Assembly (NCBI GenBank): GCA_016795105.1
Contig: JAEUIH010000028.1
Span: 1 to 64,000 of the forward strand
Origin: Planctomyces sp.
GTDB taxonomy: Bacteria > Planctomycetota > Planctomycetia > Planctomycetales > Planctomycetaceae
Direction: 5' to 3'
Length of the DNA: 64,000 nucleotides
Shown: positions 17,003 through 32,780 of the stretch, in pieces
How positions within the stretch are numbered: position 1 is the first letter of the stretch
How the letters are laid out: every line of letters starts with the position of its first letter
Program-made: the position numbers and the translations under genes
Notes under the pieces: generated by a model
What the model was told of the DNA's origin: nothing
What the model saw: the letters and a program-made list of their open reading frames with translations, nothing else
The model's database searches: none

Positions 17003-18730
17003 ATGTCAACTATGACTCAAACATCCCCCAATCATCCCTGTGAACAAACTTCGACCTGCGAAATCGCTGAGTTGTCCGATTCCGTACTTGTCCGACGCTT
17101 TGTTCAGGATGGTGATCCAGTTGCGTTCGGGGAGATTGTGCGACGTTATAGTTCACTGGTCCTGTCAGTTTGCCGGCGCGTAACCGGACAGACGGCAGAT
17201 GCCGAGGATGCGTTTCAGGCCACATTTCTGGCAATGGCTCGCCGTCCTCGCAGTGTTCGAAACTGTCGTACTGTGGCCGGCTGGCTGTATGCAGTGGCGT
17301 TTCGAACGGCCGTGCATTCCGTGCGACTGAAAAGGCGAACTGCCATGGCCGATCTTCCGGAGATTCCTGCTACATCTGAACCCGATCCTCTGGAGATCAT
17401 CGCCGCAAGTCGTGATGCGTCTGTTTTGGATGAAGAGTTGAGTCTTCTGCCGGAGAAGTATCGGGACGTGCTTGTCCTGACTTACTTCAATGGTCAGACG
17501 AGTCAGCAAATCGCTGATCAGCTGCATGAAAGCAAGGGCGTTATTGATGGTCGACTCCGGCAGGCACGGAACATGCTGCGAGTTCGACTGGCTCGACGGA
17601 GCGTGGCAATCGGAGTTGTCGCTGTTGTTGCATCTGCATCCACAGCTTCAGCATCGGCTGCTTCTTCCGAACTGGTGAATTCCACCATCACACTTGGAAC
17701 CCAGGCACTCGGCTATCCCGTGCCTGATCCTGTTGAAACATCACATCTTGAACCCCTGATTCCAGCGGAGACAATCATGATCAGTACGAAACTTATTGCG
17801 GGCAGTCTGTTGAGTATACTCGCGGCATCAGTTGGATTTTCTGCGTTTGGAAATCTGTCCGCCGGAGATTCAAACTCAGGTGAAGCCATTGTTGAGCAGG
17901 TTGCTGAGGGCTCAGCATCCGGGGAGCAATCTTCAGCCGTCAATGTGCAGGCTTCCAGTACATCTCCTGAGATTAGCGTTAGTCGAGGTGCAGTCGTATC
18001 CAGTGAAACCGCGGTATCAACCCAGGTCAATCTACCGACTGTAAAGGACTCGGTTCGAGCGGCTGTGAGTCATCAGAGAAAGGTCACTGAAAAGATCAAT
18101 GGGGCGTTGTCAGAGACCGTTTCACTTCAGTTTTCAGGAAAAACGCAGCTGGCCGACATCATTCGTCTTCTCAACGATGAGCTCAGTCATGCCATACCAG
18201 GGAGAACTGAAGTGATTCAATTCGATAAAAGCGGGCTAAATGCCGCTGGGGCGAGCTCTGAGGAGTTTTCAGTTGAAGAGATCAACCTTGAAGGTGTTTC
18301 GATGGAAAGCGCCCTGAAGTTTGTTCTTGCTCAGGCGTCTGTAGATGGGCCCGGCGCGAAATTGGACTTCATCATCCGCGATGAACTTTTGCTCATTACG
18401 ACTGAGGAGGTTGCAGATTCAGAACTGTACACACGAGTGTATGATGTTGAGAAGATTCTGCCGTTGTTCAGGTCAGAGATGTTTCATACGGCGGAAGGGA
18501 GCCTCAATGCTGATGGAACATCAGTCACAACGTCTTCAGTTCCAGCGGCAGGTTCGCAGCTGATTGAGGCCGTAACGCGGCTTGCCGAACCTGATTCGTG
18601 GTCGTCGAGTGGTGGATCTGGCGAGTGTGTTGCTGCCGATCGGCATCTTGTGGTTCGACAGTCTCGGCGAGGCCATCGTGCTGTGGCTGATATTCTTGAG
18701 CAGCTTTCTGAAGTGGCTGTCGAACTGTAG
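17003..18730 (+). CDS. ECF sigma factor fused to membrane segment and secretin-like (STN) module
   Basis: A 575-residue protein. Residues 25-110 are sigma region 2 (DAEDAFQATFLAMARRP, GWLYAVAFRTA) and 140-195 are region 4 with a helix-turn-helix (TSQQIADQLHESKGVIDGRL). A hydrophobic Ala-rich stretch follows at 200-222 and a clear membrane-helix candidate at 259-283. Residues about 370-470 resemble the short N-terminal (STN) domain of secretins and TonB receptors (VSLQFSGKTQLADIIRLLN, then SMESALKFVL and LLLITTEE). A second subdomain (VYDVEKIL, then EPDSWSSSGGSG, VVRQ, ADILEQL) matches in order the corresponding stretch of the secretin at 58535. Ordinary ECF factors are about 200 residues. The TAG stop is the head of a GTAG repeat. 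Confidence 0.88.
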   Translation: MSTMTQTSPNHPCEQTSTCEIAELSDSVLVRRFVQDGDPVAFGEIVRRYSSLVLSVCRRVTGQTADAEDAFQATFLAMARRPRSVRNCRTVAGWLYAVAFRTAVHSVRLKRRTAMADLPEIPATSEPDPLEIIAASRDASVLDEELSLLPEKYRDVLVLTYFNGQTSQQIADQLHESKGVIDGRLRQARNMLRVRLARRSVAIGVVAVVASASTASASAASSELVNSTITLGTQALGYPVPDPVETSHLEPLIPAETIMISTKLIAGSLLSILAASVGFSAFGNLSAGDSNSGEAIVEQVAEGSASGEQSSAVNVQASSTSPEISVSRGAVVSSETAVSTQVNLPTVKDSVRAAVSHQRKVTEKINGALSETVSLQFSGKTQLADIIRLLNDELSHAIPGRTEVIQFDKSGLNAAGASSEEFSVEEINLEGVSMESALKFVLAQASVDGPGAKLDFIIRDELLLITTEEVADSELYTRVYDVEKILPLFRSEMFHTAEGSLNADGTSVTTSSVPAAGSQLIEAVTRLAEPDSWSSSGGSGECVAADRHLVVRQSRRGHRAVADILEQLSEVAVEL

Positions 18731-18927: not shown

Positions 18928-20070
18928 TCAGCGGAGAGCGAGATTATCGCGGTGAATGACCTCGCCGTATTGACCGTGCGTTCCTGAGGGCAGTTGATCC
19001 TTACGACGCCCCTGAATGCCTCGGAGTTCATCAGAAGAATAATTGGCAAGTCCGCGTGCGAATTCGATGCCTTCCTTTGACTGAAGACCTACAACGGATC
19101 CTGGCTCGAACTCCCCCTGCACTGCCGTGATACCGACAGCGAGTAAAGATTTTCCGCCATCCCGCACTGCTCGACATGCTCCATCATCCAGGGTCAGCAT
19201 TCCGGCCGGGGCTGTGGTGAAGCCGATCCAGCGTTTCCATGCCGGCATTGATCCACCCGAAGCGAGGAACAGCGTGCCGGTGGCTTTTCCATGGCGAATA
19301 TCGTCGAGGACTGCGTCATTTCTTCCACTGGCAAGGATGACCGATTCGCCCATCCCCGTTGCTGACAGAATTGCTCGCAGCTTTGAATGCATGCCTCCGC
19401 GTCCGCGCGTGCTGGTTTCTGAGGAAGCCAAACCCAGAACAGATTCGTCAGGCTTTTTCACCAGCGGAATCACAGTGCTGGCAGGATCAGATGGCGGACC
19501 TGAAAAGAGACCAGCGACACCGGAAAGGATCACAAGGAGAGGGTTAGGCACCAGGGTTGCCAGCATGGACGCCAGCTGATCGTTGTCGCCGACCGCAATC
19601 TCTTTGATGCTGACGGTATCGTTCTCGTTCACAATCGGAACAACTCCGAAATCGAATAATGTCCGGATTGTGTTTCGGACATTGAGATACCGTTGACGAC
19701 TGCGAAAGTCGTTTCCGGTGAGCAGCACCTGGGCGGTTCGGTGCCCTGTTTCAGCCAGTGCATCATCCCAGGTCCGCATCAGATGAGGCTGCCCGATCGC
19801 GGCTGCAGCCTGAAGTTCCGGAAGTGAATCTGGTCGACGGTGAAGTTCGAGGATTCCAATACCGGCACCCACCGCACCGCTGGACACCAGGACGACTTTA
19901 CGTCCGGTCTTCAGAATCCTGTCAATCTGGTCAGAAAGACACTGAATGCGTTGTTTGTCGAGTCGATCGTCGTCTGTCGTCAGCACGTTGGTGCCGATTT
20001 TTACGATTACCGTTTCGCAGGACTGAAATACTTCCTGTCGAATCAAATCATCCATCTGATGTTCCATCAT
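18928..20070 (-). CDS. proB: Glutamate 5-kinase
   Basis: A 380-residue enzyme for the first step of proline synthesis, ATP-dependent phosphorylation of glutamate to gamma-glutamyl phosphate. The amino-acid kinase domain (about 20-260) shows VVKIGTNVLT, VSSGAVGAGIG, AAAIGQPHLM, the substrate loop PIVNENDTVS, GDNDQLA and GRGGMHSKL. A C-terminal PUA domain follows (about 290-365, AVRDGGKSLLAVGITAVQG). Several in-frame ATGs exist; 20070 is the most upstream plausible one. It lies 26 bp after an exported hypothetical gene and may be carried on the same long transcript as the ExbB/ExbD run. proA is not in the window. Confidence 0.95.
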   Translation of the reverse strand: MMEHQMDDLIRQEVFQSCETVIVKIGTNVLTTDDDRLDKQRIQCLSDQIDRILKTGRKVVLVSSGAVGAGIGILELHRRPDSLPELQAAAAIGQPHLMRTWDDALAETGHRTAQVLLTGNDFRSRQRYLNVRNTIRTLFDFGVVPIVNENDTVSIKEIAVGDNDQLASMLATLVPNPLLVILSGVAGLFSGPPSDPASTVIPLVKKPDESVLGLASSETSTRGRGGMHSKLRAILSATGMGESVILASGRNDAVLDDIRHGKATGTLFLASGGSMPAWKRWIGFTTAPAGMLTLDDGACRAVRDGGKSLLAVGITAVQGEFEPGSVVGLQSKEGIEFARGLANYSSDELRGIQGRRKDQLPSGTHGQYGEVIHRDNLALR

Positions 20071-20096
20071 TCACTGAGCTTTGGGAGCTGCGGCGA

Positions 20097-21827
20097 TTAC
20101 TGTTGTGGCGCAGCTGCTGGCGGGTTCTGCTTCCGTTCTTCTGCCAGTGCCCGAAGTTTCTCAATGTCTTCCATTTCCTTCAACTGCTTTTCCGTCTTAA
20201 AAAACTCTTCAAGAGATGATCCCATTGCATTGCAGAGTTTTTCAATATTTCGCTGGGCACTTCGGTTTCTTAATGCTTTGGCCTTGTCCACAGCTGGAAC
20301 TCGAACAGTGTTCAGGTCTGTATCAAACTCTTTCTTACCTTTCAGGCTCTCGATTGCTTTGAGAGATGTCTCAAGTTTGGCTTCATCTCCCGTCTCTGCG
20401 GCCTTCTTGGCCATACCTTTGAATACGGCACGGCGAGCCACAACATCTACGAGTTCATCTCGAAACAGATACAATTCACCTTCAACTCCCAGCCGCAGCG
20501 AATCGTCGGGAAGTTTCACGGTGTCGGTCGGCAAAATACCTGGCGCATACGGGACTCGAGCCAGCAGCATTCCGCCGCTGTAGACATACAGCCAAAATGT
20601 GGGATTTGCGGGATCTGTCGGAACGACAATTTCACCATTTCGATCACTCACGTGTCGAACCGGCTCACCCACACCCTCGTCCTTGTATCGTAGCTTGGAC
20701 ACTCGATCCACTCGATGGCACACCAGAGGCCTGTCCGTGCGGTTACTCAAGACCAGCCGCACCCTGCTCTCCTTTGCCATCGGACGCTGCCGCAATGCAA
20801 TCTGCTGAACGTTGCGACCTCTGCCGCCAAAGGGAGCCATACCGTGCGAAATCAAAACACCCGTGACGCGGCTGCGGTCAATGTAGTTCGCGGACGCCTC
20901 AGCCTGAGCTCCGTTGTCGGTAACATCCTGATCCGACGAAGACACACCTTCACTCAGATACTGGGTATCAAACCGAGTGACTCGTATGTACGTCAGATCG
21001 AGCTTTTGAAGTGACTTCAGCAACTTTGGGTCTCGGCGATCGAGATGCCTGAGGAAAGGACGCAGGACATCGCCTTCAGCAATCTGGGCTGCCGAAGGAT
21101 CGCGCGGTGGCAGGTCTCCAGCCTGGAGAAAGAGTTCCAGCTCTTCCGTTGCCGGCAAAGCCTGCGACAACATCAGCACCGGCCGGAAAGAGTCTCTCAT
21201 CAGACCGGCCGCGATTGACCCCAGTGATCGATAATCCATCGTTGACGATGAATACAGCGGTGTCAGTTCCTGTACTCGGCAATCGAATTCTCGACATCCA
21301 ACGTTCCAGAGATTCCCGGATTCTGTGAAGGAGATCAACATCACCTTTTCCGGATCAGAAGTGGGAAAGCGGGACTTCATTTCGTCTTCTGTCAGGCGTT
21401 CCAGTCGGGAGATTGACCCCGGCGCAAACCAGTCACTGAACACGACGGTTTCGTCCCACATGTGTCCATACATGCGGTCAATCGCATTGCTGACATCACG
21501 GAGGATCAGCGATCGAATGTGTTCTGAAACCGGTGCTGATGCGGAAATCCCGATTTCCACCCGAACGCTGTAGGGCTTTCGGGAAAGTGGTAGAACGGGC
21601 GCCTGCGGAATTTCCTGAGCAGCCGGCGCTGCCTGGGGAGCTGAGGCTGTTGCAGCAGCAGCGGGTTGTGTTGTCGCTTCAGGAGTCTGCGTCGTCGAGC
21701 CTGCAGGTGCTTCCTGAGGTGCAGCGGTCAGAGTCGAACAGCAAAACAGTCCAAGAAGCAATCCGCCAAGTGCTGGCAGCAGAGTCCTGAAGCTCGTTAG
21801 ATGAATTCTTATGGTTTGATCAGCCAT
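20097..21827 (-). CDS. Exported hypothetical protein of the ExbB/ExbD-kinase run
   Basis: About 576 residues from ATG 21827. A signal peptide (hydrophobic LLPALGGLLLGLFCC, ending LTAA) is followed by an Ala/Gln/Thr/Pro-rich linker (to about 75). The body shows mixed alpha/beta segments without a motif I can name. The central part (about 330-470; VRLVLSNRTDRPLVCHRVDR, NPTFWLYVYSGGMLLARVPY) looks like a beta-sandwich. The final 110 residues are charged and helical, with a Pro/Gln end. The start overlaps the end of the upstream solute-binding gene by 19 bp, so the two are very likely co-translated. Longer start sites upstream lie inside that gene and give a frame without a signal peptide at its N-terminus. 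Confidence 0.78.
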   Translation of the reverse strand: MADQTIRIHLTSFRTLLPALGGLLLGLFCCSTLTAAPQEAPAGSTTQTPEATTQPAAAATASAPQAAPAAQEIPQAPVLPLSRKPYSVRVEIGISASAPVSEHIRSLILRDVSNAIDRMYGHMWDETVVFSDWFAPGSISRLERLTEDEMKSRFPTSDPEKVMLISFTESGNLWNVGCREFDCRVQELTPLYSSSTMDYRSLGSIAAGLMRDSFRPVLMLSQALPATEELELFLQAGDLPPRDPSAAQIAEGDVLRPFLRHLDRRDPKLLKSLQKLDLTYIRVTRFDTQYLSEGVSSSDQDVTDNGAQAEASANYIDRSRVTGVLISHGMAPFGGRGRNVQQIALRQRPMAKESRVRLVLSNRTDRPLVCHRVDRVSKLRYKDEGVGEPVRHVSDRNGEIVVPTDPANPTFWLYVYSGGMLLARVPYAPGILPTDTVKLPDDSLRLGVEGELYLFRDELVDVVARRAVFKGMAKKAAETGDEAKLETSLKAIESLKGKKEFDTDLNTVRVPAVDKAKALRNRSAQRNIEKLCNAMGSSLEEFFKTEKQLKEMEDIEKLRALAEERKQNPPAAAPQQ

Positions 21828-24379
21828 CGTTCCACATTCTGATACGGTGTCACAGGGCGACTCGAGTATCCTGAGATATCTTTTTGAAATGCCGCAAACT
21901 CGTCGAACTCCCACAGGGGGATCAGGAATGCCTGAGCGGCCATATGCCGATGGATCGTAAACAGCTTTGCCTGAGCATCGACAAAGCTTGGTGCATAATC
22001 GAGGTTGATCAGCTCCTGCCTCATCCAGTCCGGGAAGACATCGAGACGTCTCACATCAAACGTAGTGTCATTGGTCATGACCTGCCAAAGGTCGAACAGC
22101 GGCTCTTCCATACGGACAGTGCGATACATCAGGTCCCATTCGGAATCGGGAAGAGGATTGCCGGCCTGGTCTCCAATGACAATGTCGACATCAAACTGAA
22201 TCTTTCGCCAGTAGTTGACGATCCTTTCGGCGGAGAGTTTTGCCAGTTCATCCGGCTCGACGACGAGTCTGAGTTTTGGCAGTTTGATGTAGCTCACATC
22301 TGTCGCAGCGCGAAACGCTTTTGGATCAAAAGGCTCTGTACTCTTCTCTTCTTTGGCTTTTGCTTCAGCGATGGCCTGCAGCTTTGCAAGTTCGGCGATT
22401 TGAAGTTGCTTCTCTGCGGCAAATCGGAGAGCGAATGCGAGTCGAATATCGTATGGAGGCGATGTTTCAAGGGGGTTTGTGGCGTAACTGCGTTTTCTCC
22501 AGGCAGAGCTGGTCGTGCGACCATACTTCATGGTCTGGTCCCGCAGAACGACGTTCTTGAGAATGGCTTCGCGATCGATGGCGAGTGACAGTGCTCGTCG
22601 CTGCTGTGCGCTTGTTATGTTCTTTGAGTTTGGGTTAAAGACAATTACATGGTTGACGGGAATTGCATAGGGCTCAACATGAAAATCGGGCGATGCTCGA
22701 ACGGCATCAACTTCCCATGGTCTCAAAGACGGGATGTAGTCAATCTCACCTCGGACAAGTGCCTGAATCATCTGATGCCGGTCAGCGAACTTTCGCTCTT
22801 CGATTTCGGCGACATGATACTGAGTCGCTGCAAGTCCTTCGGGTTCCGGCTGTACTCGTACATACAGCCGTCGATTTTCTTCATTTACGCTTTGTTGAAA
22901 GCGGGTCGAAAGAAGAAGGTGCGGTTCCTGTTCCCCAACTTCCTTTTGCTCGACGTCCGTGTCTGCGGTCTGTGAAAGCTCCGGGTTGGCAACGACGACT
23001 GGAAATCGAAGCAGAGATTCAATGCTCAAAGGGACGCGACTGAACTTGAGTTTCAATTCGGTCGGAGATCGCACCGAAAACTCTTTTACAAATGAGGCGA
23101 GTCTCGGATTGTAAAGTGGGTCGTCCATGTCGAGTTGATGACTGATTGCATCTGCAATCTGATTCGCTGTGAGAACGGGTTGTGACTGCCAGTGAGGTCT
23201 GGATTCCCTAAGCGTCATGACCAATTCGCGGCCGAGGTCTGAAGGCACCCATTTTTCGAAGAAGCTGGACTTGTAGAACACAATTTCATCGGCAGTTGAT
23301 GGCTCAAACAGCGGGACTTCTACAAGTTCGAGATGGCGAGCCTGTGCGGGCTGCGGACCCGGATAGACGATCTGATCACTGGAAAAAGAGTCCACTCCAA
23401 CTCTGAGCCGTTGATTTCGGGCAATAATCTGAGCGTATGAGCCGCGTTGATTGCCTGTCAGGGGCCAGATGGTATCCGCTTCGGTCGCCTTGATCGCGGC
23501 TTCTGAAAGTTTACCCTGGCTGACAAGCATCATGGCCTCATTCAGAGTTTGTCCGGAGAGCTGTGTCAGGCGTTTCGTCCATTCAGAAATCGTCAGGTGA
23601 TCCGGATAGTATCTCTGCAGACGATTCATCAGGAACCGGGCTTTGCGATACTGTTTCTGCTCGACAGCTGTGGCAATCATTCCGCCGATAATTGTGCCAA
23701 ACCGGAATTCAACCTCAGCGTTTTTACTCTTTCTTGCGGCAAGTTCATCGAGCAGTGCCAGCGCGGTGTAGATATCTCCGGCCTGAGCTCGTTTCTCTGA
23801 ATCCGCCAGAAGCACATTTTCGAAACGAGGGAGAGACTGTTCCCAGTTCGGGATCTGAGAGTCGACGACCAGCAACAGGTCATAAGCCTTTCGAATTTCT
23901 CCGGCCTGTGTGAGCTGATCGACCTGCTGCAGACAGAGCTCTTCGAACAGGATTACTCGTTCGATCGCTGTGACGGGGATCTTATATTCCGTTACCGCAT
24001 CTCCGGGGAGATTGACCACAAAGCTGCGAAGTTCCGCGAGACGTTCTGTCCGTTCTTTTCGTTCTTCGGCGGTTTTGGGGTTACTGCTTTCGAGACTTGA
24101 CCGTTCTTCTTCGCGTCTCTTCAGCGTATCGGGACGCGGATAGAGCGGACTCACCACGAGAACCCGGTTTTCAGGTTTGAGGACCAGCCAGTCGAAGGTC
24201 CGGTCATCGAGATTCGCTTTCTGCAGCATCTCTGCCGTCGGCAACTGCATTTGCTCCAGCAGAGGCAATTCTTCCTGATCAGGGCGTTCATCCTGAGCGA
24301 AAGATTGATTGCTGTCCGCTGCAATCACCGTCAAGGCAATCAGCATTGAAAATCTGAGGAAGAAAAGTGTTCTGTTCAT
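21809..24379 (-). CDS. Exported solute-binding protein, peptide-binding (SBP_bac_5) type, with helical N-terminal extension
   Basis: About 856 residues. The preferred ATG (24379) follows AGGAAG; a GTG lies one codon upstream. A signal peptide ends near FAQ. Residues about 40-340 are helical and repeat-like (FEELCLQQVDQLTQAGEIRKA, ALLDELAARKS), probably TPR-like. Residues about 340-857 resemble extracellular family 5 solute-binding proteins (OppA/DppA type): LTANQIADAISHQLD, EIDYIPSLRPWEVDA, HVIVFNPNSKN, QQRRALSLAIDREAIL, and near the end AQAFLIPLWEFDEF. A charged insertion (about 660-705) is present. No ABC permease or ATPase is nearby, so a sensing or presenting role in the surrounding run is more likely than simple uptake; this is inference. 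Confidence 0.82.
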   Translation of the reverse strand: MNRTLFFLRFSMLIALTVIAADSNQSFAQDERPDQEELPLLEQMQLPTAEMLQKANLDDRTFDWLVLKPENRVLVVSPLYPRPDTLKRREEERSSLESSNPKTAEERKERTERLAELRSFVVNLPGDAVTEYKIPVTAIERVILFEELCLQQVDQLTQAGEIRKAYDLLLVVDSQIPNWEQSLPRFENVLLADSEKRAQAGDIYTALALLDELAARKSKNAEVEFRFGTIIGGMIATAVEQKQYRKARFLMNRLQRYYPDHLTISEWTKRLTQLSGQTLNEAMMLVSQGKLSEAAIKATEADTIWPLTGNQRGSYAQIIARNQRLRVGVDSFSSDQIVYPGPQPAQARHLELVEVPLFEPSTADEIVFYKSSFFEKWVPSDLGRELVMTLRESRPHWQSQPVLTANQIADAISHQLDMDDPLYNPRLASFVKEFSVRSPTELKLKFSRVPLSIESLLRFPVVVANPELSQTADTDVEQKEVGEQEPHLLLSTRFQQSVNEENRRLYVRVQPEPEGLAATQYHVAEIEERKFADRHQMIQALVRGEIDYIPSLRPWEVDAVRASPDFHVEPYAIPVNHVIVFNPNSKNITSAQQRRALSLAIDREAILKNVVLRDQTMKYGRTTSSAWRKRSYATNPLETSPPYDIRLAFALRFAAEKQLQIAELAKLQAIAEAKAKEEKSTEPFDPKAFRAATDVSYIKLPKLRLVVEPDELAKLSAERIVNYWRKIQFDVDIVIGDQAGNPLPDSEWDLMYRTVRMEEPLFDLWQVMTNDTTFDVRRLDVFPDWMRQELINLDYAPSFVDAQAKLFTIHRHMAAQAFLIPLWEFDEFAAFQKDISGYSSRPVTPYQNVERWLIKP

Positions 24380-24390
24380 CACGAATCTTC

Positions 24391-27300
24391 CTATTTCAGC
24401 AGTTCAGCGGGGATGACATGCAAACTTCCATCGATCGCGAGCAGCATAGGAATTCCGCCGATCACCACTGGTCCCTGGCGGAGAGCCTGTCCGATCGACG
24501 TGCTGTCACCTTCCTGAACGCCGTCGCCATTGATTCTGAGCAGTGTTCCATCAGAGAATGCGGCGAGGAAACCATCGGAAGGAAGCCTGAGTGGCACACC
24601 AGCCAGACTTCTGCCATCGATTCGAATTCGCCCGGCTTCCCGAAGTCCATTGTCAATCACGAACGTTCTCAGTTCTGTACCCCCTACCTCCAGAAACAAT
24701 CGATTACCGCTGATTCGAGGAGAAGCACTGGGGACTGCGCCGAGGTCAACATCTGCCAGTATTTCAAGTGTGGTCGCCTGGAGCGCCAGCAAGTGTCCGT
24801 CAGCGGTTGCAATGTAGAGCAGTCCGGCATCAGCTGCAGGGGGCAGTTCAATGGGGTGCTCGATTCGGCTGATACCAACTTCTGCCAGTTGAGGACGCGG
24901 ACTCGGGCGATACTCGACTCGGATCAATTCATTGGCGGAGTTCACTGCGAGTACCATGGTATCGCTGAGTGCGGTCAGAGATTTCCATCCGCCCTGCTCT
25001 CCCGCGGCCTGTGCTGCACGGTAGTCTTCGGCGGGATTACCGTCTCGGGTTGCGGTGAGATGCAGTCGACCCGGCAAAGGCATGACGATACCGGCCGCAA
25101 TGGCAACGGGCTTACCCTGAGGAGCATCGGGCAGGTTCCATCTTCGTTCGAGTTGACCGACTGGAGAAATCGTCCACAACGCCGGTTCGGGCGCCCCGCA
25201 GTACGCCACAAGACGATTGTCGAGTGTCGCAAGTCCATCGACGGGTGATGCCAGCTTGTCGGGCAGCCGGAACTCACTGACAGATTCCAGCAGAAATCCA
25301 CCCTTCTGAATGTCGGAAAGAGAAGCTCTGTAGACTTTTCCAAAGTCGCCAACTGCGAGCACATTTCCTTCGTTGGTACTTCCGCCGAGAGCCACAACGT
25401 TCGTCGCCAGAACGGTTCGCCATACTCCCTTCATCTGATCTTTATCGGCGCAGGTGAGGTAGACCGAAGACAGGGTCGCTTCGCGACTTGTGATGTAGAC
25501 ATTTTCCCCTGCGTCCTGAATGGGCTGAATGTGAATCCCTTCAGCGGTGGCAGCAGAGTTCAGCATCAAGGCGTTGGTTTGAGTATCAAACTTCCGGAGG
25601 TTTCGTCCACTCAGCCACAGCTGACCTCCTGAACCTGCCAACAAAAACATCCGAGTCTGAATGCCATCTTCAAGCTGATTTGCCCCCACTTTGGACAGCG
25701 GCGCCTGATCCGGATCATCCGTGATTCGAAAGACTGTAACCCGCTGTGGAGACGAAGGAACATAAAGTTGACCGCCCCAGAGCAGACTTGGATCACGGAC
25801 CTGTCCGTCGACAGACTCCGTTGCACGTACGGAAAGCTGTCCAGTTGCCGCGTCCTTCTGAAGAACTCGGACACGGCATGCACCAGGAGTATCATTGTCA
25901 TACAATACAAAGACTTCACCGGCGGTAATCATCGGGGCTTCAACAGAACCCGGCCGATAGTTGATGTAGGACACTGTAGTGCATGCGAGCGGACTGATTG
26001 AGAGTGAGTAAACAAACATTTGATCGCCCGGGATCAGCAGCGACTTTGCATCGCGTGACAGAGTCGGTGGGCCGATGACTCGCTGAGTGAACTTAATGCG
26101 TGCAATGGCGCGCCCATTGGCAACCGCAATCTGCAGGAGTTCTCCGGCATCCGTGGTGACATACAATTGCTGTTCAAACAACAATGGTTCACCGGACGGA
26201 CGTGATCCGACCGCCTGTCGCCACAGGAGTTTTCCGTCAGATTGTCGCAGAAGCACAAGTTCGTTGAGATTTGAGTCATGAACGAGGACAGCGGGGTCCG
26301 AGCCATTGACCTGAATTGGAGAGAAAGCGGGCGACGATCCGATCACGCGTTTCCAGCGAGGTTCTCCGGTCACGGTATCGACGGCAAAGCAGCTGTCGAT
26401 GCCCATCGAAAACACAAGCTGTCCCTGTGAGACCTGATCATTGGTGGCACTGGTTCTGAGAGTGAGCGAAAGACCATTTGAAGGAACACGTGGATCATCC
26501 GTCTTTGCATCGACGCCGATATCAGACCGAACAGTCAGTTCCAGTTCGCGTTTCAGAATTTCCTGAAGGAGTGCAGCGATATCCTTGTCATCACGGAAGA
26601 CCTCGTATTGTTCAATCAGGTCCTGACGCGAGGTGACGGCAGAAGTGGTGTTCCCTGCGTCAAGGAATCCGCGAATCTGTTTCTTTGCATCTTCAAAAAC
26701 GGTTCGTTTGAGGATTGCGGCTTCAGCAATTCTCTGTCTTCGGATCAATTCTTCTTCTCGATCCTTTGGGATTTGGTTTTCCGGAGAGAAGCGTTTCAGG
26801 ATTGCCATAGCCTCAATGCTGACGTTGAGGTGTTCCTGTTTCTGGCTGATTTCGGCCACACGAGCCCCTGCGAATGTCAGTCGATCGGCATAGCGTCGAA
26901 TATTGTCACGCTGTTCTTCAAAGCCCGAAAGTTCTTTGCCGATTCGGACCATTTCGTCCAGCTGTTTGAGCCCTTCAACGACATCTACGGTTGCCGTCAT
27001 GATGTTTTTTTCGACTCGAGTCCGGTGGAGCCCAAGTCTGGCCGTATCACCTGACTTGCTTTTGGCGTAGTTCTCGAGAAATTTTATGAAGAGTTTTTCA
27101 GCTTCGCTGTATTTCTGTGTTTCCAGCGCGGTCATGCACTGCTTCAGCGAACGGCTTTCGTTTTCGCTGAAGTACATAAACAGAAACAAAGCGGCAAGCA
27201 GGCTCACGGCGATGGTACTTCCGAACAGCACCATTACCGCCGGTGATCGGACCACATCCTGTTCACCGGGACGCGAAGCGCCTCCGGCAATTGTGTCAAA

Positions 27301-27429
27301 CAGCCGTGTGATCGGGCCACGTTCGAGTTGACGTCGAGCGCGTTCGTTTTCTTTTTGTCGGCGTTCGATGTCTCGGTCATCATTTCCGGGATCATCATCA
27401 TAGTCTTCGGCTTGTACGTTCCTGGCCAT
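24391..27429 (-). CDS. Membrane-anchored PQQ-like beta-propeller protein
   Basis: A 1012-residue protein. Residues 1-60 are charged and cytoplasmic (Asp-rich, then ERRQKENERARRQLERG), and 64-88 form one membrane helix. Residues 90-300 are helical with TPR character (LETQKYSEAEKLFIKFLE). From about 330 to the end, propeller blades recur (SDGKLLWRQAVGSRPSGEPLL, TDAGELLQIAVANGRAIARIKF, ATADGHLLALQATTLEILADVD). The propeller would sit in the periplasm. Structurally this resembles BamB-like or sensor propellers fused to an anchor. It starts 34 bp after the kinase-ExbD gene and ends 11 bp before the solute-binding start. Confidence 0.85.
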   Translation of the reverse strand: MARNVQAEDYDDDPGNDDRDIERRQKENERARRQLERGPITRLFDTIAGGASRPGEQDVVRSPAVMVLFGSTIAVSLLAALFLFMYFSENESRSLKQCMTALETQKYSEAEKLFIKFLENYAKSKSGDTARLGLHRTRVEKNIMTATVDVVEGLKQLDEMVRIGKELSGFEEQRDNIRRYADRLTFAGARVAEISQKQEHLNVSIEAMAILKRFSPENQIPKDREEELIRRQRIAEAAILKRTVFEDAKKQIRGFLDAGNTTSAVTSRQDLIEQYEVFRDDKDIAALLQEILKRELELTVRSDIGVDAKTDDPRVPSNGLSLTLRTSATNDQVSQGQLVFSMGIDSCFAVDTVTGEPRWKRVIGSSPAFSPIQVNGSDPAVLVHDSNLNELVLLRQSDGKLLWRQAVGSRPSGEPLLFEQQLYVTTDAGELLQIAVANGRAIARIKFTQRVIGPPTLSRDAKSLLIPGDQMFVYSLSISPLACTTVSYINYRPGSVEAPMITAGEVFVLYDNDTPGACRVRVLQKDAATGQLSVRATESVDGQVRDPSLLWGGQLYVPSSPQRVTVFRITDDPDQAPLSKVGANQLEDGIQTRMFLLAGSGGQLWLSGRNLRKFDTQTNALMLNSAATAEGIHIQPIQDAGENVYITSREATLSSVYLTCADKDQMKGVWRTVLATNVVALGGSTNEGNVLAVGDFGKVYRASLSDIQKGGFLLESVSEFRLPDKLASPVDGLATLDNRLVAYCGAPEPALWTISPVGQLERRWNLPDAPQGKPVAIAAGIVMPLPGRLHLTATRDGNPAEDYRAAQAAGEQGGWKSLTALSDTMVLAVNSANELIRVEYRPSPRPQLAEVGISRIEHPIELPPAADAGLLYIATADGHLLALQATTLEILADVDLGAVPSASPRISGNRLFLEVGGTELRTFVIDNGLREAGRIRIDGRSLAGVPLRLPSDGFLAAFSDGTLLRINGDGVQEGDSTSIGQALRQGPVVIGGIPMLLAIDGSLHVIPAELLK

Positions 27430-27463
27430 CTGGTTTTACACCGTTTCTGCTGACTGCTTCGTG

Positions 27464-29017
27464 CTACAGAGGCTGAATCTTGTTTTTAATTCTTTGATAA
27501 CCGGCCTGAGTTGCGGCGTCGATTACGATGATCCGCATTTCATGGATGGAATCCGGATCGATGACCAGGTCGAGGTCAGTGATACCGGTTCCATTATTTT
27601 TCTCCTGCTCAAGCAGGTCATAAATCTCGTCATAGCTTTTTGCCGGCTTTCCTTCGACATACATCACATTGTCTTTATCAATTTCAACTCGAATGGCACC
27701 GGTCTCCGGAGGTTCGATTGTGAAACTTGTGGCACCGTCCTGCGTTTTTGCCGGGGGGACATCGAAACACTTTTGGAGAGTGAAAGAGGCTGTGATCATG
27801 AAGAAAATCAGTAGAAGAAATGTAACGTCGACCATTGGGGTCAAGTCCATTTCGTCATTATCAACGCGGGGTTTGCGCGGAGTATACGATTCTTCGTCGT
27901 CGTCCCAGGAAGGGAGATGTTCCACGGGCCGTCGGCCGGACGGCTGCGCATCGTCTTCGAATTCAAGCTCCTCAACAGGGACGTCAGCATTGTCATCGGA
28001 GAGTCTTTGAGTTTTTCCGATGGGTGCGTTCCTGTCGAGTTCAAATCCGGGCGACTTCATTGTTCCCGGGGCGGGTTTCGCCTGAGGCGCATCGGCTCGC
28101 AATTTTTCTTCTTCAGCAAGCCTTTCCAACTCTTCCAGTCGGGGAAGCTTGACGAGATCGAGTGACCGCCCCTGTTTTTGTGCGTTAGACAGTGCTTTCA
28201 GATCCGTCAGAATTTCGTCGGCCGACTGATATCTGAGTGATCTCCGTTTGGCCATCATTCGATGGACCATGCGACACAGCACATCGGGCACTGCCGGATT
28301 TTTCTCCTTTAATGGAGGCGGCGCATTATTCAGGTGCTGAAGTGCGATCGCCATCGGGGTCTTTCCCTGAAACGGGGTCTGACCACTCAACAGCTGATAA
28401 CACGTGACTCCGAACGAATAAATATCAGATCGTGGATCCAGCTCCTTACCGCTGCACTGTTCCGGACTCATGTACAATGGGGTTCCCATTGTAAAGCCCT
28501 CACGTGTGATGCCCCCGGCATTTTCTGGGTCGTGCAGCTGAGCAAGTCCGAAGTCGGCGACTTTGACATCGCCCTTTTTTGTGACAAGTATGTTTTCGGG
28601 TTTGATATCCCTGTGAACGATTCCTGCCTGCCCGGATGCTTTCAGTGCGGCAGCAACCTGACGCATTACGTGCATCGCCGAATTGATATCCGGTTTGCCA
28701 CGGGATTCAAGGATGCTGGAAAGGTCCTTCCCCTGAACGTATTCCTGAGCAATGTAATGCAGGTCGCCTTCCTGGCCGATTGTATAGACCTGAACGATGT
28801 TGGGATGATTGAGGCCGGCCGCCATCATCGCTTCCTGTTTGAAGCGGGCCAGCATCACATCGCCCGACAACGCCATCATCGCAGGCTTCATGACCTTGAC
28901 GGCGACATACCGCTGCAGCGTTGTTTGCTCTGCCAGATAAACATCGGCCATTCCACCGCTGCCGAGATGCCTCAGCAGATGGAATTCACCCAGAGTTTTG
29001 TCCGTTAGATCACTCAT
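27464..29017 (-). CDS. Ser/Thr protein kinase fused to ExbD/TolR domain
   Basis: A 517-residue two-part protein. Residues 10-275 are a complete Hanks-type kinase: Gly loop LGSGGMADVYLAE, Lys41 in VAVKVM, Asp137 in VHRDIKPEN, Asp155 of DFG, and the APE-like MSPEQ. A charged, partly coiled linker (about 285-385) follows. Residues 390-517 are an ExbD/TolR unit: DLTPMVDVTFLLLIFFM with the conserved membrane Asp397, then a periplasmic ExbD fold (IRVEIDKDNVMYVEGKP, DLVIDPDSIHEMRIIVIDAA). ExbD has its N-terminus in the cytoplasm, so the kinase would face the cytoplasm where ATP is. All key kinase and ExbD residues are present. A continuous frame across the linker argues against an accidental fusion by sequencing error. 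Confidence 0.93.
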   Translation of the reverse strand: MSDLTDKTLGEFHLLRHLGSGGMADVYLAEQTTLQRYVAVKVMKPAMMALSGDVMLARFKQEAMMAAGLNHPNIVQVYTIGQEGDLHYIAQEYVQGKDLSSILESRGKPDINSAMHVMRQVAAALKASGQAGIVHRDIKPENILVTKKGDVKVADFGLAQLHDPENAGGITREGFTMGTPLYMSPEQCSGKELDPRSDIYSFGVTCYQLLSGQTPFQGKTPMAIALQHLNNAPPPLKEKNPAVPDVLCRMVHRMMAKRRSLRYQSADEILTDLKALSNAQKQGRSLDLVKLPRLEELERLAEEEKLRADAPQAKPAPGTMKSPGFELDRNAPIGKTQRLSDDNADVPVEELEFEDDAQPSGRRPVEHLPSWDDDEESYTPRKPRVDNDEMDLTPMVDVTFLLLIFFMITASFTLQKCFDVPPAKTQDGATSFTIEPPETGAIRVEIDKDNVMYVEGKPAKSYDEIYDLLEQEKNNGTGITDLDLVIDPDSIHEMRIIVIDAATQAGYQRIKNKIQPL

Positions 29018-29035
29018 TGAGTCAGTACTTCCCGT

Positions 29036-29470
29036 TTACCGCTTTTCCTGAACAGCGAAGTGATACACAACGTTCTGTACTTCGGCGATCGCCGTTTCGA
29101 CCTCACTCACTGTTCCGCTCGATACAAATCTCTCAGCAATGATCATCACTTCGATCTCACCGGCAGATGCTTCCTGCGTTAGTTCTGTTTTGAGTTCCGC
29201 GAGTGTTACGTTGCGGCCATCGTTTGTGATGGCAGCTTCAGCTCCGGGAGTCAATGGTGAGCTGACAACAAGTTCCACCATACCGGCTGCGTTGCGTGAA
29301 AGTCCGGACCGTGCTGTCGGAATATCCTTATCCGGCGCTCCCTGCATGGTTGATGTAACCATGAAGAAGATCAGCAACAGGAAGGTCACGTCGATCATTG
29401 GAGTGATATCGAGGTCAGCTTCGTCAAGCTTCGATTTTTTGGGTTTACGAACTTCATCTTCGTCAAACAC
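29036..29470 (-). CDS. ExbD/TolR-family biopolymer transport protein
   Basis: A 144-residue ExbD. A charged cytoplasmic N-terminus is followed by DLDITPMIDVTFLLLIFFMV with Asp27, the residue that carries protons in ExbB-ExbD motors. The periplasmic domain (about 55-144) ends EVQNVVYHFAVQEKR. The start is GTG, with GGGAG eight bases upstream. It lies 18 bp before the kinase-ExbD gene and 33 bp after the ExbB/TolQ gene. The window thus encodes two different ExbD chains that could form one heteromeric motor with ExbB. Confidence 0.93.
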   Translation of the reverse strand: MFDEDEVRKPKKSKLDEADLDITPMIDVTFLLLIFFMVTSTMQGAPDKDIPTARSGLSRNAAGMVELVVSSPLTPGAEAAITNDGRNVTLAELKTELTQEASAGEIEVMIIAERFVSSGTVSEVETAIAEVQNVVYHFAVQEKR

Positions 29471-29503
29471 GAATGCGGCTCCCGTTGTATCTCATTGAGG
29501 CGG

Positions 29504-30214
29504 CTATCGCCGATCTGTTCGCATTTTGGCGGCTTCAATGTCATCCAGAATCTGTCCAAGACTTTCACTGACAGCATCCTGAAGTTTCGCAATCCGCACA
29601 GACACCGCGGAGCCAAGTGTGACCAGCGGAACTGCAATCAGGAGCCCGGCGGCCGTTGTCCAGAGTGCGAAGCTGATGTCACCGGCCAGAGCAGCGGGAT
29701 TAATGCCGGACGTAGCGGCAGCAGCAATTTTCCCGAAGGCGTTGATCATCCCAACCACTGTTCCAAGCAGCCCCAGCATTGGAGCGATTTTTACCATGGT
29801 TCCAACCCATGACCCCGTGTGCTCGAAGCTTGAAAGTATGTCGCGTTCGAAACGCTGTCCAACAAGCTGACGAATCTTCTTCATTGGCAAACTTCGGTTC
29901 TCCACAGCAACCATTGTCAGCTGCGGAATCGCCTTTGCCCAGACTTCCGGAGTGTCGCAGACTTTCGTGACTGCCTCGAAGTCTCCTCGGTCCAGCCGTT
30001 CAGCAATCGCGTCGACAAAAGTTCGCTCGGCAATAAGACTCGGAAACCGCTTCTGAGATACTCGACGCCACAACAGGATGATAAAGAACATCCCGAAGAT
30101 GGCACACAACGCAATGCCGAGCCAAATGGCATTTTCGGCGAAGGTCAAAATTGTCGTAACGTCCATCTGTGCCAGCATGGGCGAATCTTTCGCGTTCAAA
30201 ATACTCATGTGCAT
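29504..30214 (-). CDS. MotA/TolQ/ExbB proton-channel family protein
   Basis: A 236-residue inner-membrane protein with three helices in the ExbB layout: one near 20-48 (WLGIALCAIFGMFFIILLW), then a cytoplasmic stretch, then a helix near 140-165 containing PMLGLLGTVVGMINAF, then one near 178-205 (LWTTAAGLLIAVPLVTLG). Both last motifs are family signatures. A second ATG two codons in is also possible as start. It belongs to the run of eight genes and is preceded by the TonB-like gene 32 bp upstream. Confidence 0.95.
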   Translation of the reverse strand: MHMSILNAKDSPMLAQMDVTTILTFAENAIWLGIALCAIFGMFFIILLWRRVSQKRFPSLIAERTFVDAIAERLDRGDFEAVTKVCDTPEVWAKAIPQLTMVAVENRSLPMKKIRQLVGQRFERDILSSFEHTGSWVGTMVKIAPMLGLLGTVVGMINAFGKIAAAATSGINPAALAGDISFALWTTAAGLLIAVPLVTLGSAVSVRIAKLQDAVSESLGQILDDIEAAKMRTDRR

Positions 30215-30246
30215 TGAATTGACTGTCCTGATTTCCCGTTGAACTC

Positions 30247-31176
30247 TTATTTCAGCTTCTGACTGGTGACGACAAACTGGAATCCGCCGCCGGATGGCCG
30301 AACCTCAAAAAACGTTCGGCGGATTTGTTCCGGTGGTCGACCGCCTGAGTATTCCGATTCGAGCTGGGCCAGCTGCTGCTCGACCGCAGAGGGATAGAAA
30401 TGCAGGATTGCGGCATTCTTCGCATCAATCCCGGCTTTTTGAAACAACTCGACGTCCGCCTCTTTTCGATTTCCACCTTCCCAGTTCATAAACAGCCGCT
30501 TTTCACTGTCGCCTGTGGTGACTTCGCGCGTCGTTGGTCGATCGGCCGCCATATTAGACAGATAGACAAGCCTGTTCTCAGTCGCGAACAGAGCACCAAT
30601 TTCGATTTTGAAAAAGTCCAGCTGTGAGGCGTATGTCTTCAAATCACCTGTATTTGAAAACTGCACAAACCAGCGGTTCTCTCTGCGAACACCGCCCCCA
30701 GTTCCCCCGCCGCTGCCGAATGGGCGTCCCCCGGTTCCTTCTGCACTTCCGGGATTGCCGGTGTTCTTCTGATCGGAAAACTCCGTGGGCTCCACCAGTT
30801 GAGCCGCATTCTCAGCAACTTCCACAACGGGATCCGTGATCTCCATCAGTTCCGTGACTTCCTGCTGATCATTGGCAACCGATGGGTCGTCCGTGGGATC
30901 TTCCGGAGAATCGACATCCGGGGTCGCGTCCGGAGTTCCATCTTCATATCCGCCACCCCCAGACTCCATGAATGGCTCTTTGACGACGTCAGTAGTCAGT
31001 CGATTGGCAAGCCAGATCGCAATCAAAATGGCCAAAGCCGCGGCTGCCATTGAGAGCATGGCCATCAGTCCAGCGGTCGCGATGTCGTAACGGTTGATCG
31101 TGAGTTTGGGGAGTTTGCGACTTGAGGCTCCGCGTTCTGCAGTACCGGATCGCCCAGATGTTGTAGATGTAGACAT
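30247..31176 (-). CDS. TonB-like single-pass membrane protein with acidic linker
   Basis: A 309-residue protein, first of the run. Its start follows a GGGGGGAGAAT ribosome site. A short cytoplasmic N-terminus precedes a membrane helix at about 33-58 (GLMAMLSMAAAALAILIAIW). Next comes an acidic Pro/Asp/Glu linker (about 75-135), a Gly-rich stretch (about 145-165) and a compact C-terminal domain (about 168-309; RWFVQFSNTGDLKTYASQLDFF, ending FFEVRPSGGGFQFVV). This is the architecture of TonB or TolA. I see no direct TonB signature, so the assignment rests on layout and on the ExbB/ExbD genes next door. The periplasmic C-terminal domain is the likely partner-contact part. Confidence 0.75.
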   Translation of the reverse strand: MSTSTTSGRSGTAERGASSRKLPKLTINRYDIATAGLMAMLSMAAAALAILIAIWLANRLTTDVVKEPFMESGGGGYEDGTPDATPDVDSPEDPTDDPSVANDQQEVTELMEITDPVVEVAENAAQLVEPTEFSDQKNTGNPGSAEGTGGRPFGSGGGTGGGVRRENRWFVQFSNTGDLKTYASQLDFFKIEIGALFATENRLVYLSNMAADRPTTREVTTGDSEKRLFMNWEGGNRKEADVELFQKAGIDAKNAAILHFYPSAVEQQLAQLESEYSGGRPPEQIRRTFFEVRPSGGGFQFVVTSQKLK

Positions 31177-31768: not shown

Positions 31769-32731
31769 TTAATATTCCCCAAGCGGCTCACCCTCGGAAA
31801 TGCCCGAAAGTGCAGCCCACGTCGGCTGATGAATAAACTGCGATGCAAATCGGACACTGCCGTCGCCCAGGAGAATCATCGCTCCGCCTGAATGTTCCGA
31901 ATACATCTGGCAGACATGCGCCAATGGGCTGTTCGGGGGATGAATGGGTGCAAATCCGGTCTCGGGATCGATTTCAGCAGTTGCCGGACCGCTGTGGACA
32001 TTGACCAGGGTGGCTGCTCGATCACAGGCGGTAATAGGAAATCTGTCCGGCCGGTTTGTACAGACAACTGCACCCGGAACCACACCTACCCAGGTCTTGT
32101 CACTCAGCAACGGAACGTGTTCCCCCATAAAAACTGTGTTGGATAATCCGTCAGTGACATCGGCCACACGAGTTGCGGAATTCCGGTAAAACGGGCCATC
32201 GGCGATCTGTCGGTAGTCGTCCGCAGTGCTGCCCCACGGCTCTTCTCGGCCTGCGTTCATCACATACGTGGTCCGCCCAAATTCCGCGAGCTGTGCACCA
32301 GAGTCATCCCGAACCAGAACGGATGTTTCCGCCGACGTTGCAGACGGACATATGAACACTGGAACCTTAACGCGGGTCGAAGTCGAATTCTCGGTGGCCC
32401 AGGATGCCGTCTGAAAGTTCAAGGCATGATACAGGCCTGACTGCTCCACATATGGCAGTATCAAAGCACCCCACGCAAAGCCGGACGGGCCGTCGAATGT
32501 TTCCAGATGTCTTTGAGCATGGTGAGTATCTGCGATCCATGCGGGTGGGAAGACTCGATGAGCCTCTTCGTAGTTATGCAATGCAATCCCGATCTGGCGA
32601 AGCTGACTTCGACACTGGGTTTGCCGAGCCGCTTCACGGGCCTGCTGGACGGCAGGAAGGATCAGCGAAACAAGCACTGCAATAATGGCAATTACCACTA
32701 ACAACTCGATGAGTGTGAAACCCCGCCGCAT
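31769..32731 (-). CDS. DUF1559 protein with prepilin-type N-terminus
   Basis: A 320-residue protein of a family greatly expanded in planctomycetes. The N-terminus MRRGFTLIELLVVIAII is a type IV pilin-like methylation and cleavage motif (cleavage before FTLIEL). Family features follow: LPAVQQAREAARQTQCRSQLRQIG, ALHNYEEAHRVFPPAW, VFICPS, and near the end ILLGDGSVRFASQFI. I choose ATG 32731 because GGAGGGAAG sits eight bases upstream; a TTG six codons earlier would place that site inside the gene. Family function is unknown, though a pseudopilin-like surface role is likely. Confidence 0.93.
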   Translation of the reverse strand: MRRGFTLIELLVVIAIIAVLVSLILPAVQQAREAARQTQCRSQLRQIGIALHNYEEAHRVFPPAWIADTHHAQRHLETFDGPSGFAWGALILPYVEQSGLYHALNFQTASWATENSTSTRVKVPVFICPSATSAETSVLVRDDSGAQLAEFGRTTYVMNAGREEPWGSTADDYRQIADGPFYRNSATRVADVTDGLSNTVFMGEHVPLLSDKTWVGVVPGAVVCTNRPDRFPITACDRAATLVNVHSGPATAEIDPETGFAPIHPPNSPLAHVCQMYSEHSGGAMILLGDGSVRFASQFIHQPTWAALSGISEGEPLGEY

Positions 32732-32780
32732 TCCGCTTCCCTCCGACAAACTCCTGAATTCTCACTGGAAAACTCACCGT

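Follow-up and report, generated by a model that had tools for sequence, protein, structure and literature searches.

A conserved planctomycete gene module combines an ExbB/ExbD-type motor with a propeller protein and, in one clade, a Ser/Thr kinase fused to ExbD

Organization of the locus

Eight open reading frames (ORFs) occupy positions 31176 to 18928 of a 64,000-nucleotide stretch of DNA from Planctomyces sp. (contig JAEUIH010000028.1; the whole stretch is referred to here as the window). A reading of the sequence alone had proposed that they encode one machine, in which an ExbB/ExbD-type motor is combined with a Ser/Thr kinase fused to ExbD, a propeller protein, a solute-binding protein and ProB. 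All eight lie on the minus strand at the coordinates first noted, and they are indeed tightly packed, with gaps of −19 to 34 bp (32, 33, 18, 34, 8, −19 and 26 bp in succession, taking 21827 as the start of P0007). We found that the first seven genes form a module whose order is conserved in several planctomycete families, that the kinase–ExbD fusion is genuine and belongs to one clade, and that two further kinase lineages are associated with the module elsewhere. The features are as follows, with family matches taken from Pfam and NCBIfam above their curated cut-offs.

30247..31176, minus strand: P0001, membrane anchor or tether, 309 aa; no family match above cut-off
29504..30214, minus strand: P0002, ExbB/TolQ-type subunit, 236 aa; Pfam MotA_ExbB, 74.5 bits (cut-off 22.9)
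29036..29470, minus strand: P0003, ExbD1, 144 aa; Pfam ExbD, 53.4 bits (cut-off 25.4)
27464..29017, minus strand: P0004, kinase–ExbD2 fusion, 517 aa; Pfam Pkinase and ExbD
28235..28984, minus strand: Hanks-type kinase domain of P0004, residues 12-261; Pkinase, 167.2 bits
27485..27862, minus strand: ExbD domain of P0004, residues 386-511; ExbD, 64.8 bits (cut-off 25.4)
24391..27429, minus strand: P0005, anchored propeller protein of BamB/PQQ type, 1012 aa; PQQ_2, 50.5 bits, best stretch 349-441
21809..24382, minus strand: P0006, exported protein with a family-5 solute-binding domain at 375-751; SBP_bac_5, 61.8 bits
20097..21827, minus strand: P0007, exported protein, 576 aa from the start at 21827; no family match above cut-off
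18928..20070, minus strand: P0008, proB (glutamate 5-kinase); Pfam AA_kinase and PUA, NCBIfam ProB, 368.7 bits
31273..31302, minus strand: TTGACA-18-TAGCAT, a promoter-like site by consensus match only, ~96 bp upstream of P0001

Hydropathy analysis gave one transmembrane (TM) window each in P0001, P0003 and P0004 and three in P0002; P0005 has one near its N terminus and a second, weak one at 988 that is probably not a TM segment. The likely start of P0007 is ATG 21827 and not GTG 21914, which is disfavored because it would overlap P0006 by 106 bp. The region holds 7 promoter-like sites, with 6.3 expected by chance.

Conservation of the gene order

We mapped 40 stretches around ExbD2 matches, drawn from 40 of 120 genomes of the window's family, and recounted them with profiles. 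The order anchor, exbB, exbD1, exbD2, propeller, solute-binding protein, exported protein is complete in 29 of these loci. The other 11 comprise five that lack the anchor only, three with four or five of the genes, one with ExbD2 only, and two ended by the contig. Fifteen named fusion loci (L039–L053) have the same gene order, several of them ended by the contig; several are contigs already in the 40-locus set (e.g., JALHMY010000034.1, "Fuerstiella sp."), and they were not added to the count. We also examined 25 loci that surround anchor matches in ten other families of the class. All seven genes occur in order in 14 of them, which represent six families (f5, f7, f9, f11, f14, and f19), three keep the order and are ended by the contig, and one (f4) consists of the anchor and motor only. 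The expectation that a multi-gene machine would prove conserved, with synteny in other planctomycete genomes, was thus borne out both within the family and in six others, and because gene order is kept across families, the grouping is more than chance. A further 15 family loci around anchor matches (L162 and L168–L181) include two that are complete, nine in which the anchor stands alone in the stretch (in two of them, L162 and L168, it is a second copy), and four that are partial.

The anchor profile found a match in 211 of 248 genomes of the class, including all 73 family genomes listed, and the profile of the exported protein P0007 in 210 of 248. The two occur together in 200 genomes, the anchor only in 11, the exported protein only in 10, and neither in 27; except for G262 (f5), the discordant genomes are all in f3 and f8, where scores are low. 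In a phylum-wide draw, the anchor profile matched 27 of 294 genomes, all 27 of them inside the class.

The claim that all eight genes form the unit did not hold. Among the G-numbered genomes, proB adjoins only in loci of the genera g1 and g11, where it follows the exported-protein gene, and it is absent from this position in g13 and g20 loci with room to show it. As it adjoins in only part of the fusion clade, we rejected proB as a functional member, and the conserved module is the seven genes from 31176 to 20097.

Motor subunits

Two threonines of P0002, T152 and T187, are invariant in 60 of 60 sequences and fall in stretches aligned with the TM threonines of solved ExbB. The pore aspartate is likewise invariant in both ExbD proteins (Asp27 of ExbD1 in 60/60 and Asp397 of ExbD2 in 62/62); the window is included in each of these counts. 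The TM3 glutamate of E. coli ExbB (E176) is replaced here, by Phe in the family rows shown. Judged from its invariant residues, the motor looks functional, and it is predicted to be driven by protons.

The N terminus of ExbD2 is variable. Among 43 ExbD2 proteins of the family, 14 carry a kinase, 28 carry a CxxC...CxxC zinc ribbon, and one is ended by the contig. The fusion noted in the window is real, being in frame and kept in a clade, and the kinase is not a universal part of the machine, its place being taken in most of the family by the ribbon. In other families (n = 18), 13 ExbD2 proteins match the ribbon pattern and five do not, one of these (L160) having a closer-spaced ribbon. In one genome (G080, L193:1174-8151) the axle protein is greatly lengthened: a zinc-ribbon ExbD2 lies within an open frame of 2326 residues that contains long SMDGVVALPEADG-type repeats.

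The kinase fused to ExbD2

In P0004, the kinase (residues 12-261) is joined to ExbD (386-511) by an acidic linker of ~100 residues (about 285-385). The N terminus of known ExbD proteins is cytoplasmic. The only TM window of P0004 starts at 396, inside the ExbD part, which places the kinase on the side of the ExbD N terminus. The catalytic residues Lys41, Asp137, Asn142, and Asp155 are all present, the corresponding Lys, HRD Asp, Asn, and DFG Asp are kept in 14/14 fusion kinases, and the nearest solved structures are StkP and PknB; we infer that the domain is probably an active kinase.

Among the matches listed and the loci read, the fusion occurs in four genera only (g1, g11, g13, and g20), and the fused kinase domains are 55-91% identical to one another. 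Across the 13 complete fusion loci of the family, kinase identity to the window is 69-85% in 11 and lower (62 and 65%) in two, and propeller identity in the same 13 loci is 39-60%. By this comparison of sequences, the kinase is the most strongly conserved component of the operon in fusion loci. In a tree of kinase domains (from which domains of <180 residues or <80 bits were left out), the ExbD2 kinases form one clade (14 sequences, support 99/98). Their nearest sampled relative is another kinase of the window genome, 54% identical, in which the kinase domain is followed, by eye, by a TM segment and a repeat-like region. On its contig (C330 of genome G000; L196), this paralogue is separated by ~2.4 kb from another kinase-like stretch, perhaps a decayed kinase gene, in which the match reads through three TGA codons.

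Other kinases associated with the module

All three f14 propellers fetched contain a kinase-associated domain and then a complete kinase in the same protein (173 bits in Pfam for L144). A second association is found downstream. In 8 of 20 non-family loci (f5, f9, f11, f13, and f14), a convergent kinase gene lies at most ~60 bp from the exported-protein gene, with kinases scoring 100 or less left out of the count, and these eight kinases are orthologous (52.6-96.5% identical). No convergent kinase was counted in 38 family loci, most of whose stretches end 0.6-2.6 kb downstream; in one family locus (L080) there is a kinase match in an incomplete ORF ~200 bp downstream. The convergent kinases (8 sequences, support 100/99), the f14 propeller kinases (3 sequences, 100/99), and the ExbD2 kinases are separate clades in the tree. 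The presence of three separate kinase lineages at the same machine points to a functional tie to Ser/Thr phosphorylation, and supports such a tie without giving its direction. The proposed coupling of a kinase to the complex thus survives in that it reappears in other families in other forms, and fails as a general rule for the fusion, which was seen in four genera only among the matches listed and the loci read.

The kinase-associated domain, of ~60 residues, was also found outside propellers in six ORFs of the fetched loci. In five of these a kinase domain stands directly behind it, and the sixth (L166), ended by the contig, lies at the position expected for the start of the propeller gene. 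The domain precedes kinases in L144, L150, L151, L152, and L159 and is also present on kinase-less propellers; two of the latter, scanned singly (L151 and L154), gave no Pfam match above cut-off for it.

The propeller protein and its cytoplasmic N termini

P0005 has a short acidic cytoplasmic N terminus, a TM window from 65, a weak TPR-like stretch, and then the propeller. In its orthologs the cytoplasmic part can contain an FHA-fold domain, a kinase, or the kinase-associated domain. We compared 66 propeller N termini (cytoplasmic part plus TM), 15 of them from the fusion clade, including one (L058) whose contig ends inside ExbD2; propellers scoring 200 or less were left out of residue counts. 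Pfam FHA matched 25/66 at an E value of 1e-3 or better, and a hidden Markov model (HMM) built here found an FHA-fold domain in 29/66 (25 of the family and 4 of f2), so that it is present on 25/29 non-fusion propellers of the family. By HMM, 18/66, all non-family, share the kinase-associated domain, and the remaining 19 (the 15 of the fusion clade and four others) have neither. The FHA model was built on 2 sequences and that of the domain preceding kinases on 3 f14 sequences, which match by construction.

The tether and the exported proteins

P0001 consists of a cytoplasmic N terminus, one TM helix (window from 36), a low-complexity periplasmic linker, and a conserved C-terminal domain at ~169-309. 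Its description as a TonB-like anchor is upheld by topology only, as no TonB match was found in Pfam or NCBIfam, TonB_C included, and there is no TM histidine. With anchors scoring 130 or less, or lacking a TM window of 1.6, left out, 67/70 anchors and anchor paralogs lack a His in the TM helix and its vicinity, and the other three have one at other positions. In the model of the C-terminal domain, most ten-residue blocks from 171 onward had pLDDT values of about 74-92, and one had 59; no convincing match came from searching it for related folds (best Foldseek E 0.1, VIA Z at most 3.2). The TonB and TolA ends did not turn up among the fold matches; this does not show that the fold is new. Pfam gave no vWA match.

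A juxtamembrane motif, [ST]-x-[YF]-[DE], is present in 62/70 anchors and anchor paralogs, with Thr as its first residue in 45/62 and Ser in 17/62. FHA domains prefer pTxxD. We considered whether the motif in the window (T28-x-Y-D31) is a phosphothreonine site for the FHA-fold domain; the idea is weakened by the replacement of Thr by Ser in 17 of the 62, by the occurrence of Ser variants in f2 genomes that have FHA-fold propellers, and by the lack of most contact residues in the FHA-fold domain itself. Second, diverged anchor copies (29-32% identical) stand beside the operon in L056, L057, and L063, which come from two genomes of g1 and one of g20; in L162 and L168 (G018 of g11 and G066 of g20) a second copy stands at another place.

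Ahead of its solute-binding domain, P0006 has ~370 residues without a match above cut-off; they begin with a hydrophobic segment, a signal peptide by eye, and include a long, weakly TPR-like region (TPR_19, 15.2 bits, below cut-off). A model of P0007 made from 12 sequences had a mean pLDDT of 64.5. Its N-domain weakly resembles the TolB-N/PelC/PqiC type of fold; the match to TolB-N (Foldseek E 8e-5; VIA Z 7.8, root-mean-square deviation 3.1, 107 residues) is equaled by CT253 (Z 8.5), PqiC (8.2), and others. The further parts are a sandwich of transthyretin type, for which the best Z was 8.5, and a C-terminal helical bundle. These fold likenesses may serve as leads.

Neighboring genes

Upstream, on the operon's strand, 31769-32749 encodes a DUF1559/prepilin-like protein (SBP_bac_10 match; H-X9-DG C terminus). 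Such proteins are ordinary for planctomycetes. Convergent with proB, 17003-18730 encodes an ECF-type sigma factor of 575 aa, in which the match spans 41-196 and is followed by a long C-terminal extension.

Discussion

The TonB-dependent receptor family (PF00593) had no match in the window genome (controls were positive in 3/14), and TolB_N (PF04052) had none in the genome, in P0005, or in P0007. Two OmpA-domain matches above cut-off, candidates for Pal, lie on other contigs, and the genome has nine MotA/ExbB matches. With no TonB-dependent receptor or TolB found in the genome, the machine is neither Ton nor Tol-Pal as known. It shares with the 5:2 motors ExbBD and TolQR the ExbB and ExbD families, the pore Asp, the TM threonines, and a single-pass tether gene in the operon, and it differs from them in having two different ExbDs, a kinase or zinc ribbon on the N terminus of ExbD2, a tether without a TonB_C or TolA match or a TM histidine, and propeller and solute-binding partners.

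According to PMC12204202, an SHLS motif with its histidine marks the TonB, TolA, and vWA transducers, and the PVC group has TPR-tolQ-tolR-tolR-vWA clusters with paired TolR-like genes; the presence of two ExbDs is therefore not new in itself. Those vWA force-transducer clusters share with the present module a heterologous TolR/ExbD pair, a tether with a linker and globular end, and their occurrence in planctomycetes. The tether described here differs in having neither a Pfam vWA match nor the TM histidine, and section 8 of that paper has no description of propeller, solute-binding, P0007, or kinase modules. The kinase domain of P0004 is closest to StkP and PknB among solved structures, and P0004 shares a membrane anchor and a periplasmic part with these membrane-spanning kinases and with planctomycete repeat-domain Ser/Thr kinases (PMC11032199). 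The f14 kinase–propeller has the plain layout of these membrane-spanning Hanks kinases, whereas P0004 is anchored in the membrane by an ExbD motor subunit. The main text of PMC11032199 does not use the word ExbD, and the open-licence papers listed in the searches showed no description of the operon or of an ExbD–kinase fusion. The main text of a Planctopirus limnophila transposon study (PMC10632474) contains none of the words TonB, Tol, biopolymer, proton, and solute. PMC2754498 reports that exbB (RB12053) and exbD (RB12055) of Rhodopirellula baltica, which may or may not belong to this operon, were induced by high salinity.

Our tentative explanation, to which we give a probability of about 0.43, is that the module encodes a proton-driven trans-envelope machine specific to this class of planctomycetes, in which a periplasmic part sets the engagement or load of the motor and a kinase held on the axle reads it. 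ExbB, with ExbD1 and ExbD2 as a predicted two-ExbD axle, would engage the single-pass tether P0001, which reaches into the periplasm. The anchored propeller, the solute-binding protein, and P0007 would be the working or sensing part, probably within the same complex, and would set how the tether engages or loads the motor. The kinase, which the acidic linker attaches to the cytoplasmic N terminus of ExbD2, would then read the state of the motor, so that the signal would pass from periplasm to cytoplasm; in other lineages, the coupling may run through a kinase on the propeller or a kinase gene beside the operon. We thus infer, as the sequence-only reading did, that sensing of a ligand or of the state of the envelope may act through the motor on a kinase. 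A bolder form of the proposal is that the machine is a mechanochemical receptor, in which proton-driven rotation or load of the ExbB-ExbD1/ExbD2 axle directly gates its kinase, and that kinase coupling arose repeatedly across the class by different means (axle, propeller, or neighboring gene); this we regard as rather doubtful.

Several observations weigh against the explanation that we favor. Some of the kinase associations may be chance, as the window genome has 152 kinase matches (pieces counted apart), and most of the family has no kinase fused or seen adjacent, so that the complex may not require one. The kinase-associated domain is found on only 5/34 kinase ORFs in the fetched loci, the other 29 being without it. 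Seven of the 25 non-family loci (f2, f13, and two of three f14) have no ExbB/ExbD genes at the locus; all seven have the anchor and propeller, and six have the solute-binding and exported proteins. In six family genomes (L169–L174) the anchor stands apart from the remaining genes, and as it is without the TM histidine of TonB and TolA, its docking on the motor is putative. The fusion and the absence of the FHA-fold domain coincide in one clade only, and four other family loci (L076, L077, L093, and L094) have neither. FHA domains contact phosphothreonine through an Arg after the first Gly and a Ser three residues before the His. By eye, the Arg is present in only 9/29 FHA-fold domains and the Ser in only 1/29, and 24/66 propeller N termini also match the YscD cytoplasmic family. 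Phosphothreonine binding is therefore doubtful, the domain may be structural instead, and the FHA matches give weak support; this residue check lowered our confidence in the explanation and in its bolder form.

The main rival, which we consider somewhat unlikely, reverses the direction of control: the kinase would regulate the motor from inside, and phosphorylated tails of the tether, ExbD, or propeller would switch it, for example, by growth or division stage. A kinase tethered to its likely substrates fits this arrangement, as does the juxtamembrane motif found in 62/70 anchors and paralogs. However, that motif adjoins the membrane and may have a structural role, with Thr first in only 45 of the 62, and a periplasmic solute-binding domain and propeller are typical input modules.

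Less probable still, and in our view improbable, is a Tol-Pal-like function: bacteria that have no TolB would use the module to constrict the outer membrane or keep it intact, and the kinase would have been added in a particular lineage. The TolQ/TolR-type motor, single-pass tether, propeller, and TPR-like stretches would suit such a system, and the TolB-N-like fold of P0007 in a genome without TolB_N matches could be read in the same way, but this fold match is tied with CT253, PqiC, and others, and the operon has no TolB_N, TolA, or TonB_C match. A solute-binding protein would be out of place in Tol-Pal, and more than one lineage has kinases attached to the complex. It is very improbable that the module serves Ton-type nutrient uptake, with an imported ligand passed on to the solute-binding protein and the fusion of the kinase being incidental: an ExbB/ExbD motor, a tether of TonB topology, and a solute-binding protein do share one operon, but the reading is already weakened by the lack of a TonB-dependent receptor match in the genome, P0001 has neither a TonB_C domain nor the conserved TM histidine, none of the eight genes encodes an ABC permease, and the fusion is kept across a clade at 55-91% kinase identity.

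The 5:2 motors are engines for uptake, envelope upkeep, and motility. If the explanation that we favor is true, with an axle-held kinase reading a motor whose load is set in the periplasm, a motor with a kinase on its axle would be one that also signals. The module occurs in most of the class genomes sampled. The envelope biology of these bacteria is unusual and has found little explanation, and the named partners (kinase, tether tail, and propeller) make it approachable at the bench to ask how planctomycetes connect the envelope with their large set of kinases.

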